From: Pseudobdellovibrionaceae bacterium
GTDB taxonomy: Bacteria; Bdellovibrionota; Bdellovibrionia; Bdellovibrionales; Bdellovibrionaceae
Reading direction: 5' to 3'
Assembly (NCBI GenBank): GCA_019637955.1
Contig: JAHBUS010000008.1
Location: 1-64,000 of the forward strand
DNA: 64,000 bases
The notes under the pieces were generated by a model that was not told the DNA's origin, did no database searches, and saw only the letters and a program-made list of their open reading frames with translations. Position 1 is the first letter of the stretch, and each line of letters opens with the position of its first letter. Both the position numbers and the translations under genes were made by a program. This document shows, piece by piece, positions 54,677 through 59,797 of the stretch.

Positions 54677-55092
54677 ACCGCCACCTCAGGTCCACGCAAG
54701 ACGTCTTGAACCGAGAGGCCACGGTAAAAATTGGTCAGGCGGTTGTTCAAATTTTGGATCGGAGAAATGATATTGCACGACGAATGGATGTCGCATGTCT
54801 CGCCGGAGTTCAGGCATTTGGCGATCGCGGTCGGACCTTCCATCATCTCGATGATTTCGAGCAGCGTGATCTGGTCCAGGGCGCGGGTCAGCTTGTAGCC
54901 CCCGGTTTTGCCCTGTTCGGAGCGTAGAAGGCCCTTCTGAGCCATGATCTGAAGAGCCCGGGCCACCGCCTCAAAAGGCGCGTGAAAGGCGTCTGCGACC
55001 TCTTTGGCGGTCGTCAGGTCCTCATTGGCCTTGGCGCCCATGTGTTTGAGCGCCATGAGCGAATATTCAACTTTGCGGTGAACCTTGTTCAT
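54673..55092 (-). CDS. iscR: Rrf2-family Fe-S cluster regulator (IscR/SufR-like)
   Basis: The product has 139 residues. An Rrf2 winged helix ([49 protein letters not shown]) is followed by three Cys (C93, C100, C106) in [15 protein letters not shown], the cluster ligands. The spacing is 7 and 6, against 6 and 6 in E. coli IscR. It probably senses Fe-S status and represses its own operon. The ATG is directly preceded by the T-tract of a terminator-like hairpin; no separate ribosome site is visible. Confidence 0.9.
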
Positions 55093-55126
55093 AAAAAAAA
55101 CCCCGGAAGTGGATGCTTCCGGGGTT
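55093..55126 (-). terminator. terminator-like hairpin abutting the iscR start codon
   Basis: On the minus strand CCCCGGAAG, loop CATCCA, CTTCCGGGG form a 9-bp GC-rich stem followed by eight T and immediately ATG of iscR. It sits about 70 bases after the stop of the 55194-56843 gene, whose transcript it can end. The only SD-like sequence for iscR, GGGG, is inside the 3' arm of the stem. Confidence 0.85.
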
Positions 55127-55158
55127 CTAGATGAAAACTGATTGAAAGGAAAGCTAAA

Positions 55159-55193: not shown

Positions 55194-56843
55194 TTACCTC
55201 ACGGGAGGTGTGTACGGAGGTCCAGGAACCGGGACCGGCACGGGAACCGGAATCGGGTTCGGCACAGGAACCGGGACGGGAACTGGGACATTGGGTCCCG
55301 GAACCGGGTAAGGGTTGGGAACGTTGATGTACTGAGTCTCTTTCTTTCGGGGAAGTAAGAGCCAAGCCAGCAATCCACCGACGACCAAGCCGCCGATTCC
55401 AAACACCCAAGGAGAGATTCCGCCTGAATCACGTTTGTTTTCGTTGGGCGGGGGACCTTGAGGCGGAGGCACGTCACGGATGGGCTCGGGAGGACGAGGC
55501 TCGCCTCCGCCCACGCGAGGACCGCAACCGCGCTCGAACTGACCGTCACCGAATTGAGGCTCTTGGTTGTCGTTACAAACGCAGCGGAAGTGATTGGGGC
55601 ACTGATCAACGGCCTTGCGTTGACCTTCGGGGCAGGTCAGTTGATCGCGAGGACAACCTTTGCTGCCGCACTGATTGTCAGTCACGGGAGGCGTGCTGGG
55701 AACCGGAACCGCGTCGTTCGGGTTCGAACGGCAGTTCAAGCTCGCAAAGCGGCCGGGCGTGCGTTTGACAAGATCTTTACACTGAAGAGCCGCGAGATCG
55801 GCGTAACGGTTGCGAAGATCGGCACACGCCTGGGTCTGCGCCGCGGAAGGCGAGCGTCCGCCCGACTTCATCGTTTCACACGTGCGCTTCACGCTTTCGA
55901 GAGCCTGCAAAGCACTGGTTTGATGGCGGGTGAAATCGTCATTGTTGCGAATGTCCCGGGGGAAGGCCGAGTCCACATCGCGGTGAGCGGCGGTACAGGC
56001 TCCGGCCGCGGCCGTGGTCGACACCCACTGAGCCTGCGAACCGAAGATCGCAGGATTACACTGAATTTCGTTTCCTTGGCGGACTTGCAAATTCGAATCG
56101 CCTTTACCGCAAACGCCGTCTTTGAAGGTCGATGAATAACCGGCCACGATACAGCCCGTGCCGTCAGCGGCGCGGTTGCCTGCGGCCGCCTGAGCCGGGT
56201 CTAAGAGCACTTCCCAGATCGAGGCCGACTGAGCGGGGCCATACCAAGCGGCTTGAACTTTCTCGGCCGCTTCCATCATATCTTGGAGTTTGCGGAAGTA
56301 CTGCTTCTTCTCTTGAAGGGTCAGACTTTGGATCTCGTCCACTTTCAAGATTTGGAACGAGGGTTTGGCCGCGGCGAAAGCGCCGTTCTCCTGCAGAAAC
56401 TGGGTGATCTGCTGATACATCACCTGCTGACCGTCGGCCGTGTTCAGGCGCAGGGTCACGGGTTTTTTGTTCAACGTGGTCACGATCTTGACGACCGAGT
56501 GGCCCTCTTCTTGGGTCACGTCGATGGTCGACGATTGTCCGCCTTCGGACGAAATGATCTGGAGGTCTTCACCGCCACGGTTGTTTTTGATTTTGTTGAT
56601 CTGCACTTTCGGAACGACCAAGCCGGGCATTTTATCCGACAGGTCTTTCCACATGTGGTAATCGCTCTTGGACATCTGGGTCTGCGCATTGCGGACCAGG
56701 TCCTCGAACTTGCGGCTCTTCTGGGTGAGTTTGGTTTTCTTGATAAAATCGAGAACCAAACCTTGCGAAGACGCAGTTCCGGGCGCGGCGAAAGACGTGA
56801 CCGTTAAGATCAACGACAAACTAAGTACGAGGAAACGAAACAT
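55194..56843 (-). CDS. exported membrane protein with Cys-rich region and Val-Pro tail
   Basis: The product has 549 residues. A signal peptide (MFRFLVLSLSLILTVTSFAA) is followed by about 200 residues rich in charged helices, then a Cys-rich part from about residue 235 (GTGCIVAGYS, DGVCGKGD, DNQCGSKGCPRDQLTCPEGQ, CPNHFRCVCND). A single membrane span near residue 490 (SPWVFGIGGLVVGGLLAWLLL) is followed by RKK and a tail of alternating Val-Pro (PVPVPVPVPNPIPVPVPVPV). The topology suggests the Cys-rich part outside and the VP tail inside the cytoplasm. No family recognised. The start codon lies in the loop of a perfect hairpin. Confidence 0.75.
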   Translation of the reverse strand: MFRFLVLSLSLILTVTSFAAPGTASSQGLVLDFIKKTKLTQKSRKFEDLVRNAQTQMSKSDYHMWKDLSDKMPGLVVPKVQINKIKNNRGGEDLQIISSEGGQSSTIDVTQEEGHSVVKIVTTLNKKPVTLRLNTADGQQVMYQQITQFLQENGAFAAAKPSFQILKVDEIQSLTLQEKKQYFRKLQDMMEAAEKVQAAWYGPAQSASIWEVLLDPAQAAAGNRAADGTGCIVAGYSSTFKDGVCGKGDSNLQVRQGNEIQCNPAIFGSQAQWVSTTAAAGACTAAHRDVDSAFPRDIRNNDDFTRHQTSALQALESVKRTCETMKSGGRSPSAAQTQACADLRNRYADLAALQCKDLVKRTPGRFASLNCRSNPNDAVPVPSTPPVTDNQCGSKGCPRDQLTCPEGQRKAVDQCPNHFRCVCNDNQEPQFGDGQFERGCGPRVGGGEPRPPEPIRDVPPPQGPPPNENKRDSGGISPWVFGIGGLVVGGLLAWLLLPRKKETQYINVPNPYPVPGPNVPVPVPVPVPNPIPVPVPVPVPGPPYTPPVR

Positions 56844-56868
56844 GGGTGAACCCCCTCGTACTTAGTTT
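56818..56868 (-). promoter_or_regulatory. perfect 15-bp inverted repeat enclosing the start codon of the 55194-56843 gene
   Basis: AAACTAAGTACGAGG (56818-56832) and CCTCGTACTTAGTTT (56854-56868) are perfectly complementary, separated by 21 bases. In the minus-strand mRNA this makes a 15-bp stem whose loop contains the ATG (56843-56841). The SD-like GAGGGGG is half in the stem, seven bases before the ATG. The 3' arm codes for residues 4-8 of the signal peptide. It could control translation. Confidence 0.85.
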
Positions 56869-56873
56869 ATGGA

Positions 56874-58838
56874 TTACTGGACGTGAAGGAAGTCCTGTTC
56901 TTTCAAAAGAGGCAGAATATCGACGTTTTGGAAGACAGGATCGAAGTCAAACTTGAATCGGGGCGTGTTGTTGGGACCCAGACCCAGACCCATCAAGCTG
57001 ATTTCGGAGATGATCGAGCCCGTGAACCCGCCGGTGTACCGACTATGGACGAGGGGCGCGTTCAGCAGCAGGCGGCTGTAAGCCACGCCACGGCCTTCGG
57101 GTCGGCAGGCGGCATCTTGTTGTTGTTCACCCACCGTCGACTTCATTTCGGCGTAGATATTACGCGAGTAGTCCGCACCGCTCATCGGCGACGCACGGAA
57201 GTGGTAAGCGCCCACGACGACTTTGGCATCGGGAACAGAACCCACTTGGTATAGACGCCATTTCGCCGAGTTGGCGATCGCCGCATAGTAATCGGTAGTC
57301 TGAGTGGCGTTAAAGCCCGAGCCTTGCGCATTGGCCGCTTGAGTTTGGTAGTAGCCCCAATAGCCGGCATCCGATGACCCTTGCTCGCAATGATTTCCAT
57401 TTTTCCAGAGTGAACCCAAGCCCATGAGGATCGAACGCGTGCTCGAAATCTGCAGGTTGCGCTTGCTGTAATCGCCGGAACCGCTCGAGACGTAATTGAT
57501 GTTGCCGTAAACAAACACCGAGCCAGTCGCGTAAATGCGGCAGCCTTTGTGCGTGTTGATCGTGACGTTATCGAGCATTAATGCGCCATAAATCATCAAG
57601 TCGCCTTCGCACGTGAGCGTGGCGTTCTGAACGCGGAAGTAAGGCGTAGACGCATTGACCTTGGTCAAACCGGATAAGCCCGCGCCGCCCGCATCGGCAA
57701 TGTATTTATACCCATTAGCGGTGTCGGTGCCGTTCCAGTTGAATACGGTTTCCAAGCGCGAAACTGTAGGCGCTCCGATAAAGAAGTTTCCTTTTTCGAT
57801 CACGGTCGAAAGCGGAGAATCGGGATAGTAGGAATGCGCCAAGCGGTGCTGAATATACCCTTTGAGGGTCGAAGCACCCGTGGCGGCCGCAGGACCTGCA
57901 GGGATGTTCGCGACGGGGACGTAAACTTTCTGTCCCGAGCCATCAGCATTTTTCACGAGATTCAAGTAAGCCCATGAACCGACGCCTTTGGGATTATTCT
58001 GTCCATGATCCTTGAGAGAATCTTGGTCACCATAAACCATGTCCGTCTGCCAGTTGTAAGAAGAGTCCGGAGCCAGGCCGCCGAAGAAGTAGTTGCGGCT
58101 CGAGCCGTCACCACCGTAACCGAAGTCGGTGATGATGTTCGAGTGAACTTCGGCGTGACACGTGATACAGCCAGTTCCGCGAACCGCGAGAGCGGGCTGG
58201 AGCAAGTTGACGGCGTTACCGACTTGCAGAGTCAGACGCGCGGTCTTCACCGTTCCGTCCGCATGACGAGCGTAAACCCAGACGATCGCCTCACCGCGGA
58301 AGCCGAACTCGGGTGTAAATCTGAGGCCCCAATTGGCGGTATCAATGACTTCCACACGGCCGATGCCGGCGTTGTCTTTTGAAGTCACGTTCGAAGCGAA
58401 ATCAAAACTAAAGACGAAACCCGTGCGATTTCCCGTGTAGGCGGCGGGGAAATCTTTGGCTTCGCCAAAGTTGGTACGGATGAGTTGATCTGTCAGAACA
58501 AGGTCATGAGTGGGTGTGGGGTTGGTCGCCGTTGCGGAGGCCGTCGCGGTCGCCGTCGCCGTGGCGGTCGCAGTTGAGGTGGCCGTCGCGGTGGCAGTTG
58601 CTGTGGAGGTTGCTGTTGCCGTCGCGGTCGCGGTGGCTGTTGCGGTCGCAGTTGCCGTGGCCGTGGCGGTCGCTGTTGCGGTGGCCGATGCCGTCCCCTG
58701 AACGATGTTGGAGCTGTCGCTCGAAACGTCGAAGGCTACTGGCGCACAGTTTTGGAAAGAGACCGAAACCAGCGGCAACACGAGAAAAATCAACACGAGG
58801 TTGGTGATAACCCAGCGTTTAAACGACTTTTTCTCCAT
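56874..58838 (-). CDS. secreted lipoprotein-like protein with Ala-Thr stalk and one CxxCH haem site
   Basis: The product has 654 residues from the ATG at 58838, which has GGAGGT 5 bases upstream; longer frames lack this. The N-terminus FKRWVITNLVLIFLVLPLVSVSFQNC suggests export, with FQNC as a likely lipobox. Residues about 46-105 are an (Ala-Thr)n stalk. An Ig/cadherin-like region follows, then GTGCITCHAEVHSN, a c-type haem-binding CxxCH. The rest (FRVQNATLTCEGDLMIYGALMLDNVTINTHKGCRIYATGSVFVYGNI) reads like a right-handed beta-helix. Function is unknown; a surface redox or adhesion protein is possible. Confidence 0.75.
   Translation of the reverse strand: MEKKSFKRWVITNLVLIFLVLPLVSVSFQNCAPVAFDVSSDSSNIVQGTASATATATATATATATATATATATATATSTATATATATSTATATATATATASATATNPTPTHDLVLTDQLIRTNFGEAKDFPAAYTGNRTGFVFSFDFASNVTSKDNAGIGRVEVIDTANWGLRFTPEFGFRGEAIVWVYARHADGTVKTARLTLQVGNAVNLLQPALAVRGTGCITCHAEVHSNIITDFGYGGDGSSRNYFFGGLAPDSSYNWQTDMVYGDQDSLKDHGQNNPKGVGSWAYLNLVKNADGSGQKVYVPVANIPAGPAAATGASTLKGYIQHRLAHSYYPDSPLSTVIEKGNFFIGAPTVSRLETVFNWNGTDTANGYKYIADAGGAGLSGLTKVNASTPYFRVQNATLTCEGDLMIYGALMLDNVTINTHKGCRIYATGSVFVYGNINYVSSGSGDYSKRNLQISSTRSILMGLGSLWKNGNHCEQGSSDAGYWGYYQTQAANAQGSGFNATQTTDYYAAIANSAKWRLYQVGSVPDAKVVVGAYHFRASPMSGADYSRNIYAEMKSTVGEQQQDAACRPEGRGVAYSRLLLNAPLVHSRYTGGFTGSIISEISLMGLGLGPNNTPRFKFDFDPVFQNVDILPLLKEQDFLHVQ
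58522..58702 (-). repeat. hexanucleotide microsatellite encoding (Ala-Thr)n
   Basis: About 30 imperfect copies of a 6-base unit (GCNACN on the coding strand) occupy this stretch, with occasional Ser in place of Ala or Thr. Slippage by whole units keeps the reading frame, so stalk length may vary between strains without loss of the protein. Confidence 0.9.
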
Positions 58839-59050
58839 AAGACCTCCGTCAATAGCAAGGCGCACGTCGTCCCGACGCACAATTCCCCTGCATTTATTAT
58901 CGGCACTTGTGTCTAGTTTCGGGAGTTCTTTTTTACAGAATCTCAGACTGGAATATCCTCGAGCCAGAATGAGACAGTTTCTTTGACAAGCGGGCCTCTC
59001 ATGGGGTTTGTAGTAGACGAGCGCGCCTATGCGCACCGGGGTCAAGAGCA
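58839..59050. promoter_or_regulatory. divergent spacer between the Ala-Thr protein and the tol operon
   Basis: The 212-base gap has a perfect -35, TTGACA, on the plus strand at 58983-58988, with a weak -10 (TTTGTA, 18-base spacer), about 40 bases before the ATG at 59051. On the minus strand GATAAT near 58904 could be a -10 for the other gene. A GCGC-CTAT-GCGC hairpin lies near 59025. Confidence 0.4.
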
Positions 59051-59797
59051 ATGCGAATCATCGGTCTTTCGGCCGTCTGTCTATTTATTCTCGGAATGAT
59101 ACTGTCTTCCGCTCATTTTTGGGGTTTGTCCCAAAAGCCCAAGACCTTTGAACATGCCTGGTTTCAGCTCGATCGCCCCTGGCGGATCGCCCCCCTGTCC
59201 TTATTAGAGAAGACCAAGCCCAGCGATTTTATCTGGATTGATGTGGTCCGTTCGCAAGAGCAAAACCTGTTTGCGGCCACCTCCCCGATCGATCTCACCA
59301 AAAAGTACTGGTCGGACCGGGAGCTCCAAGAACTCGGCTTTCCGCAATTAAAGGATGCTCTGACCCGCGTGGAGGGCCGCCGCTTGGTGCTGAATCTTCT
59401 GTCAAATGTGGAAGGGCTTGATTTGCAGCTGTCAGATTTGATCGGCGCCTCGGGCAAGGACCGCATCTTGGTGCAGTCCGAGTTCGACAATCTTATGAGG
59501 GCCCTTAAAAAGTTGCAGCCGCTCTGGCTCTACGGCTCCAGCCAGGCCGAGCGCGTGCGCTTTCGAACCTTTGAATCGCTTTGGATTCTGACCGCGACTC
59601 CTTTTCAGGGCGACGTCTACGTCGGGCCCCTGAAACAGAAAAACGTGGAATTGCTCACCGAACAGGTGGCCGCCGAAATCAAACGCCGTGGCCAGCATCT
59701 CATTGTCGGACCGCTTGAAAATAAGGACGAATGGGACCAAGCCCTTCGTCTGGGCGCTGACGGGGTGTTCATTGATCATGAGGAGCTTCTTCACTAG
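59051..59797 (+). CDS. GDPD-like TIM-barrel protein, membrane-anchored, probably inactive
   Basis: The product has 248 residues. An N-terminal anchor (IIGLSAVCLFILGMILSSAHFWGL) precedes a barrel whose strands resemble glycerophosphodiester phosphodiesterase: RLVLNLLSN, RILVQSEFDNLMRALKKLQP, WLYGSSQAE and, at the C-terminus, EIKRRGQHLIVGPLENKDEWDQALRLGADGVFIDHEELL. The catalytic HRG near the N-terminus is missing and replaced by an unrelated stretch, so it is probably not an active GDPD. It starts the tol run, 12 bases before tolQ. Confidence 0.6.
   Translation: MRIIGLSAVCLFILGMILSSAHFWGLSQKPKTFEHAWFQLDRPWRIAPLSLLEKTKPSDFIWIDVVRSQEQNLFAATSPIDLTKKYWSDRELQELGFPQLKDALTRVEGRRLVLNLLSNVEGLDLQLSDLIGASGKDRILVQSEFDNLMRALKKLQPLWLYGSSQAERVRFRTFESLWILTATPFQGDVYVGPLKQKNVELLTEQVAAEIKRRGQHLIVGPLENKDEWDQALRLGADGVFIDHEELLH

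Follow-up and report, generated by a model that had tools for sequence, protein, structure and literature searches.

A hairpin predicted to bury the ribosome-binding site of a second cistron in a Pseudobdellovibrionaceae bacterium

What might a perfect inverted repeat do around the start codon of a gene when one of its arms lies inside the coding sequence? The question is raised by a 64,000-nt window, the whole stretch of DNA analysed here (positions 1 to 64,000 of contig JAHBUS010000008.1, assembly GCA_019637955.1). On its minus strand the leader and first codons of one gene read TAA TCCAT AAACTAAGTACGAGG GGGTTCACCC ATG TTT CGT TTC CTC GTA CTT AGT TTG, the first TAA being the stop codon of the gene upstream on the same strand. 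An inverted-repeat search placed the arms at exactly the coordinates given in the preliminary description, each of 15 nt, 100% complementary and separated by a 21-nt spacer that contains the ATG. In the mRNA, the 5' arm, AAACTAAGTACGAGG (56854-56868, minus strand), is untranslated and includes the GAGG of the Shine-Dalgarno (SD) sequence. The 3' arm, CCTCGTACTTAGTTT (56818-56832, minus strand), consists of signal-peptide codons, among them the rare GTA and AGT, and takes in the third base of codon 4, the whole of codons 5-8 and the first two bases of codon 9 (TTC through TTG above), rather than codons 4-8 as first described.

Folding of the mRNA-strand leader, a check that the preliminary description had proposed, gives a single dominant hairpin of -25.9 kcal/mol for 71 nt (naked-RNA energies), against a mean of -12.3 for shuffled sequences (z -5.24; 0 of 200 shuffles equally stable). 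The 15 Watson-Crick pairs of the stem are extended at the foot by U-G and A-U to 17 bp, and at the top by three inner GGG/CCC pairs that form a mini-hairpin, GGG-UUCA-CCC (56844-56853, minus strand), on the main stem. The SD region, GAGGGGGT (56850-56857, minus strand), had been thought to lie half in the stem, but its GAGGGGG is almost completely paired, the GAGG in the long stem and the following GGG with the CCC ahead of the ATG. The start codon (56841-56843, minus strand) and the 8 or so nucleotides that follow it are unpaired, in an 11-nt single-stranded stretch of the loop. Modelled in a 211-nt context, the SD core has an unpaired probability of at most 0.01 at 37 C. The element thus has, in the model, what defines a hairpin sequestering a ribosome-binding site (RBS): an SD paired in a stable local structure that includes the start region.

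Such a structure is rare in this genome. The sample comprised 2.38 Mb of the 3.77 Mb (14 contigs; 63%), with a simple ORF-based gene list, and helices with loops of up to 40 nt were counted at 2,210 predicted starts, one per gene. A perfect helix of at least 13 bp around a true start occurs in this case alone; the longest after its 15 bp are one of 12, one of 11 and four of 10. When leaders were shuffled, and downstream codons shuffled among synonyms, a helix of at least 15 bp arose once in 240 whole-sample replicates, so that the earlier claim of a match unlikely to arise by chance holds for this genome: the hairpin is real, rare and beyond chance, if less extreme given the many windows and kinds of feature that were scanned. 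With the peptide fixed, the codon choice needed to complete the arm has p 3e-5 under genome codon usage and 4-6e-5 under early-codon or signal-peptide usage. The two rare codons of the coding arm (GTA, 4.8%; AGT, 7.6%) would be uninformative on selection if the leader was copied from that arm.

If every candidate start is counted and loops may be larger, two longer helices appear, both of them GGTGCCTGGCACC-type repeats across TTG codons at which translation probably does not begin. No second case was found among the other long perfect inverted repeats of the sample, which are terminators, GGTGCCTGGCACC-type repeats or intergenic palindromes, with an ATG in a long helix in none of them; neither the arm nor the loop is a repeated element by any excess of matches in the genome. 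The GGTGCCTGGCACC sequence is itself a repeated palindromic (REP-like) element of this genome, on which the long perfect inverted repeats at C7:120045-120115, C7:267763-267823 and on C1 (minus strand, at gene 662380-665100) are built. Elsewhere, C7:7401-7472 carries a 29-bp perfect inverted repeat, ATTCACAAAAGATACCATATTTTGTGAAT, with a 14-nt spacer, a possible operator upstream of two minus-strand genes which, from their resemblance, we presume may be an AbiEii-like toxin-antitoxin pair. Nested inverted repeats are present at C7:48791-48846, the GTTCCTGACCACT arms being enclosed by a longer CTGCCCCTTGCCCAT / ATGGGCAAGGGGCAG pair.

The gene that begins in the hairpin (55194-56843, minus strand) encodes a secreted or membrane protein of 549 amino acids without a named family, with a signal peptide, a Cys-rich region, a C-terminal hydrophobic segment and a Pro-rich tail. 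The upstream gene encodes a lipoprotein-like product with an Ala/Thr repeat and one CxxCH motif, and is kept in several relatives; its longest open reading frame spans 56874-59051 (minus strand), with the true start probably internal to it. The low-complexity Ala/Thr repeat (58514-58807 in the window, minus strand) lies just past the lipobox region. Searches of Pfam and NCBIfam gave a confident family for neither protein. The upstream TAA stop (56874-56876, minus strand) is 30 nt ahead of the ATG and 5 nt ahead of the perfect arm. This 30-nt gap, the shared strand and the lack of any promoter-like site between the two genes on the minus strand (in a scan for sigma-70-like sites) suggest from sequence that both are carried on one transcript, and their occurrence together in a relative, described below, makes co-expression plausible. 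Downstream of the pair lie rrf2-sufB-sufC-sufD. An operon shared with these genes is not favoured: rrf2 is preceded by a motif of its own, CGTATTT followed by TTTCA-type and CTTTC-type elements, which is seen in many relatives, and we infer from this that the pair stands as a separate unit. A terminator-like hairpin, ACCCCGGAAG-CATCCA-CTTCCGGGGT and then a T-tract (55097-55128 in the window, minus strand), leads straight into the rrf2 ATG at 55092; by eye it is absent from the compared relatives, which share the CGTATTT/TTTCAATT-type motif further upstream.

Homologues were sought in 66 genomes of the family and 141 of the order, none of which shares the genus; contig scans with the 549-aa gene or with SufD found no close relative. 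Homologues of the 549-aa protein in the family and order searches show 21-31% identity over most of its length, with higher values solely in short C-terminal matches. The upstream gene is better conserved, at 47% identity in genome G011 and 44% in G007. The one syntenic pair found is that of G011, of another genus, where the upstream homologue (on G011:C154) is followed after a 72-nt gap by a same-strand signal-peptide gene of 669 codons whose C-terminal part matches (48% over residues 471-544). Its SD region, TAGGGGGTTACTTCATG, resembles the GAGGGGGTTCACCCATG found here, with AGGGGGTT at an equal distance from the ATG, and its start region lacks an inverted repeat and is not unusually stable (z 0.19). 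The upstream gene likewise precedes rrf2 in G007, where no homologue of the 549-aa gene was found in between. Across the start regions of 24 homologues, the syntenic one included, spanning helices reach 0-10 consecutive pairs, against 17 here, and no such hairpin is present. From these comparisons the SD core looks ancestral and the hairpin lineage-specific; absent from syntenic and distant homologues alike, the hairpin gives the idea of a maintained switch no backing from conservation.

The explanation that we consider best, though held at somewhat below even confidence, is that the hairpin acts in cis to restrain translation of the second cistron, with coupling to the first as the likeliest but unproven release. 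Any transcript begun upstream of 56868 would fold its leader onto codons 4-9 as the mRNA emerges, burying the SD, and free 30S subunits would then initiate the 549-aa protein inefficiently. Indeed, the model leaves the SD core no more than 3% open between 10 and 75 C, which predicts that free 30S subunits would initiate very poorly. Most of the protein would come from ribosomes that have terminated on the upstream gene and scan across the 30 nt, or else from initiation during the brief interval that precedes transcription of the 3' arm; its level would accordingly be low and would follow translation of the operon partner.

Many downstream cistrons are silenced by structure at the RBS, and coupling is maintained up to a spacing of +25 nt (PMC12548453). 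The same review notes that coupling tends to be weaker where structure lies just past the upstream stop (PMC12548453); this, together with the absence of the hairpin from the sole syntenic relative, counts against the two-cistron explanation. When the RNA was blocked to 10-12 nt past the upstream stop, about the reach of a terminating ribosome, the SD stayed shut in the model, and it opened, in part, once about 17-18 nt after the stop were cleared. A ribosome halted at the upstream UAA would thus leave the SD closed, so that coupling in its simple unfolding form is insufficient. The routes of release that remain, as far as the model goes, are scanning over 30 nt by a terminated ribosome and initiation before the 3' arm emerges. 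The nearest known counterparts are the coupled pairs in which structure silences the second RBS, namely MS2 coat-lysis, f1 VII-IX and E. coli rpmI-rplT (PMC12548453), which share with this locus the burial of the second RBS by a hairpin and the close spacing of the two genes on one strand. They differ from it in that the hairpin here lies wholly past the upstream stop, where the translating ribosome does not traverse it, and in that its partner arm is made of the downstream gene's own signal-peptide codons; the coupling here is, moreover, putative. A further version, to which we give little weight, is a lineage-specific gate: with the leader paired to the signal-peptide codons, a first ribosome would enter, its successors would hold the hairpin open, and once traffic stopped it would close for good. 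If that were true, a given mRNA would either yield the secreted partner protein at full rate or not yield it at all.

The main rival, second to a restraining hairpin, is that the structure is a young and roughly neutral relic of mutation, left when one template switch during replication (a quasipalindrome event) copied the signal-peptide coding start, as its reverse complement, into the leader, or perfected a weak inverted repeat already there. This is a possibility to be taken seriously, if a distinctly less probable one, and it allows that the hairpin may slightly lower expression. Template switching can make a perfect hairpin in one event (PMC8794818), and the arms here are indeed perfect, with no mismatch or compensatory change, and missing from the syntenic relative and from all homologues. 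If steady expression of the gene is needed, selection should nevertheless act against a buried SD, and coding-region inverted repeats with arms of at least 11 bp and spacers of 12-60 nt number 12, against 17 expected from synonymous shuffles, so that no general process of that kind is visible at that spacing. Transposase genes offer another model for the geometry. In IS10 and IS50 an inverted repeat flanking the start hides the RBS in read-through transposase mRNA when both arms are transcribed; by analogy, read-through transcripts with both arms would be silent here, and a shorter transcript from an internal promoter, begun inside the hairpin, would be translated. In favour are the matching geometry and a weak -10-like hexamer, TAAACT, at 56869-56864, but the scan for sigma-70-like sites found no promoter-like pair, no properly spaced -35-like hexamer is visible by eye, and no transposase or other mobile element is involved. 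A modelled transcript from 56860 still hides the SD, and one from 56855 frees it partly. With no convincing internal promoter, we regard this as improbable.

The preliminary description had favoured a translational switch, controlled by temperature, a protein or a small RNA. Folding bears out the part of this proposal in which a hairpin occludes the gene's ribosome site; control by temperature it does not support. RNA thermometers use marginal, imperfect stems, and in the ROSE and fourU types the SD lies in a hairpin near the AUG, so that the presence here of start codon and SD in one hairpin is the usual anatomy. The stem at this locus is perfect, neither bulged nor U-rich, and very stable, with no melting predicted in the physiological range: even the AGG of the SD core does not open with warming in the 211-nt model, and we consider a thermometer extremely improbable. 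A switch opened in trans, by a small RNA, an RNA-binding protein or RNase III cleavage, would suit the long stem (17 bp and three inner pairs) and the exposed AUG loop, and is about as improbable as the transposase-type arrangement. Allowing up to 3 mismatches, the loop has no second match in the genome, matches to the arm within 2 mismatches are not in excess over a reversed control, the Rfam search gave no match at the hairpin, and conservation is lacking. An inverted repeat is symmetrical in DNA as well, which leaves a two-half-site operator or a transcription terminator to consider in place of an RNA element; this is very unlikely, genome matches to the arm being no more frequent than in the control and the stem being followed by no T-tract on either strand, which agrees with the earlier rejection of a terminator for the upstream gene.

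These comparisons place the hairpin within a kind of element that is already known, the example here being seen in one genome. If the hairpin is neutral, a start region in this bacterium tolerates a structure of -26 kcal/mol. If it does have a function, the locus offers a small natural system for studying initiation at an almost completely buried RBS of a second cistron, and would bear on whether coupling proceeds by unfolding of the RNA or by ribosome scanning.
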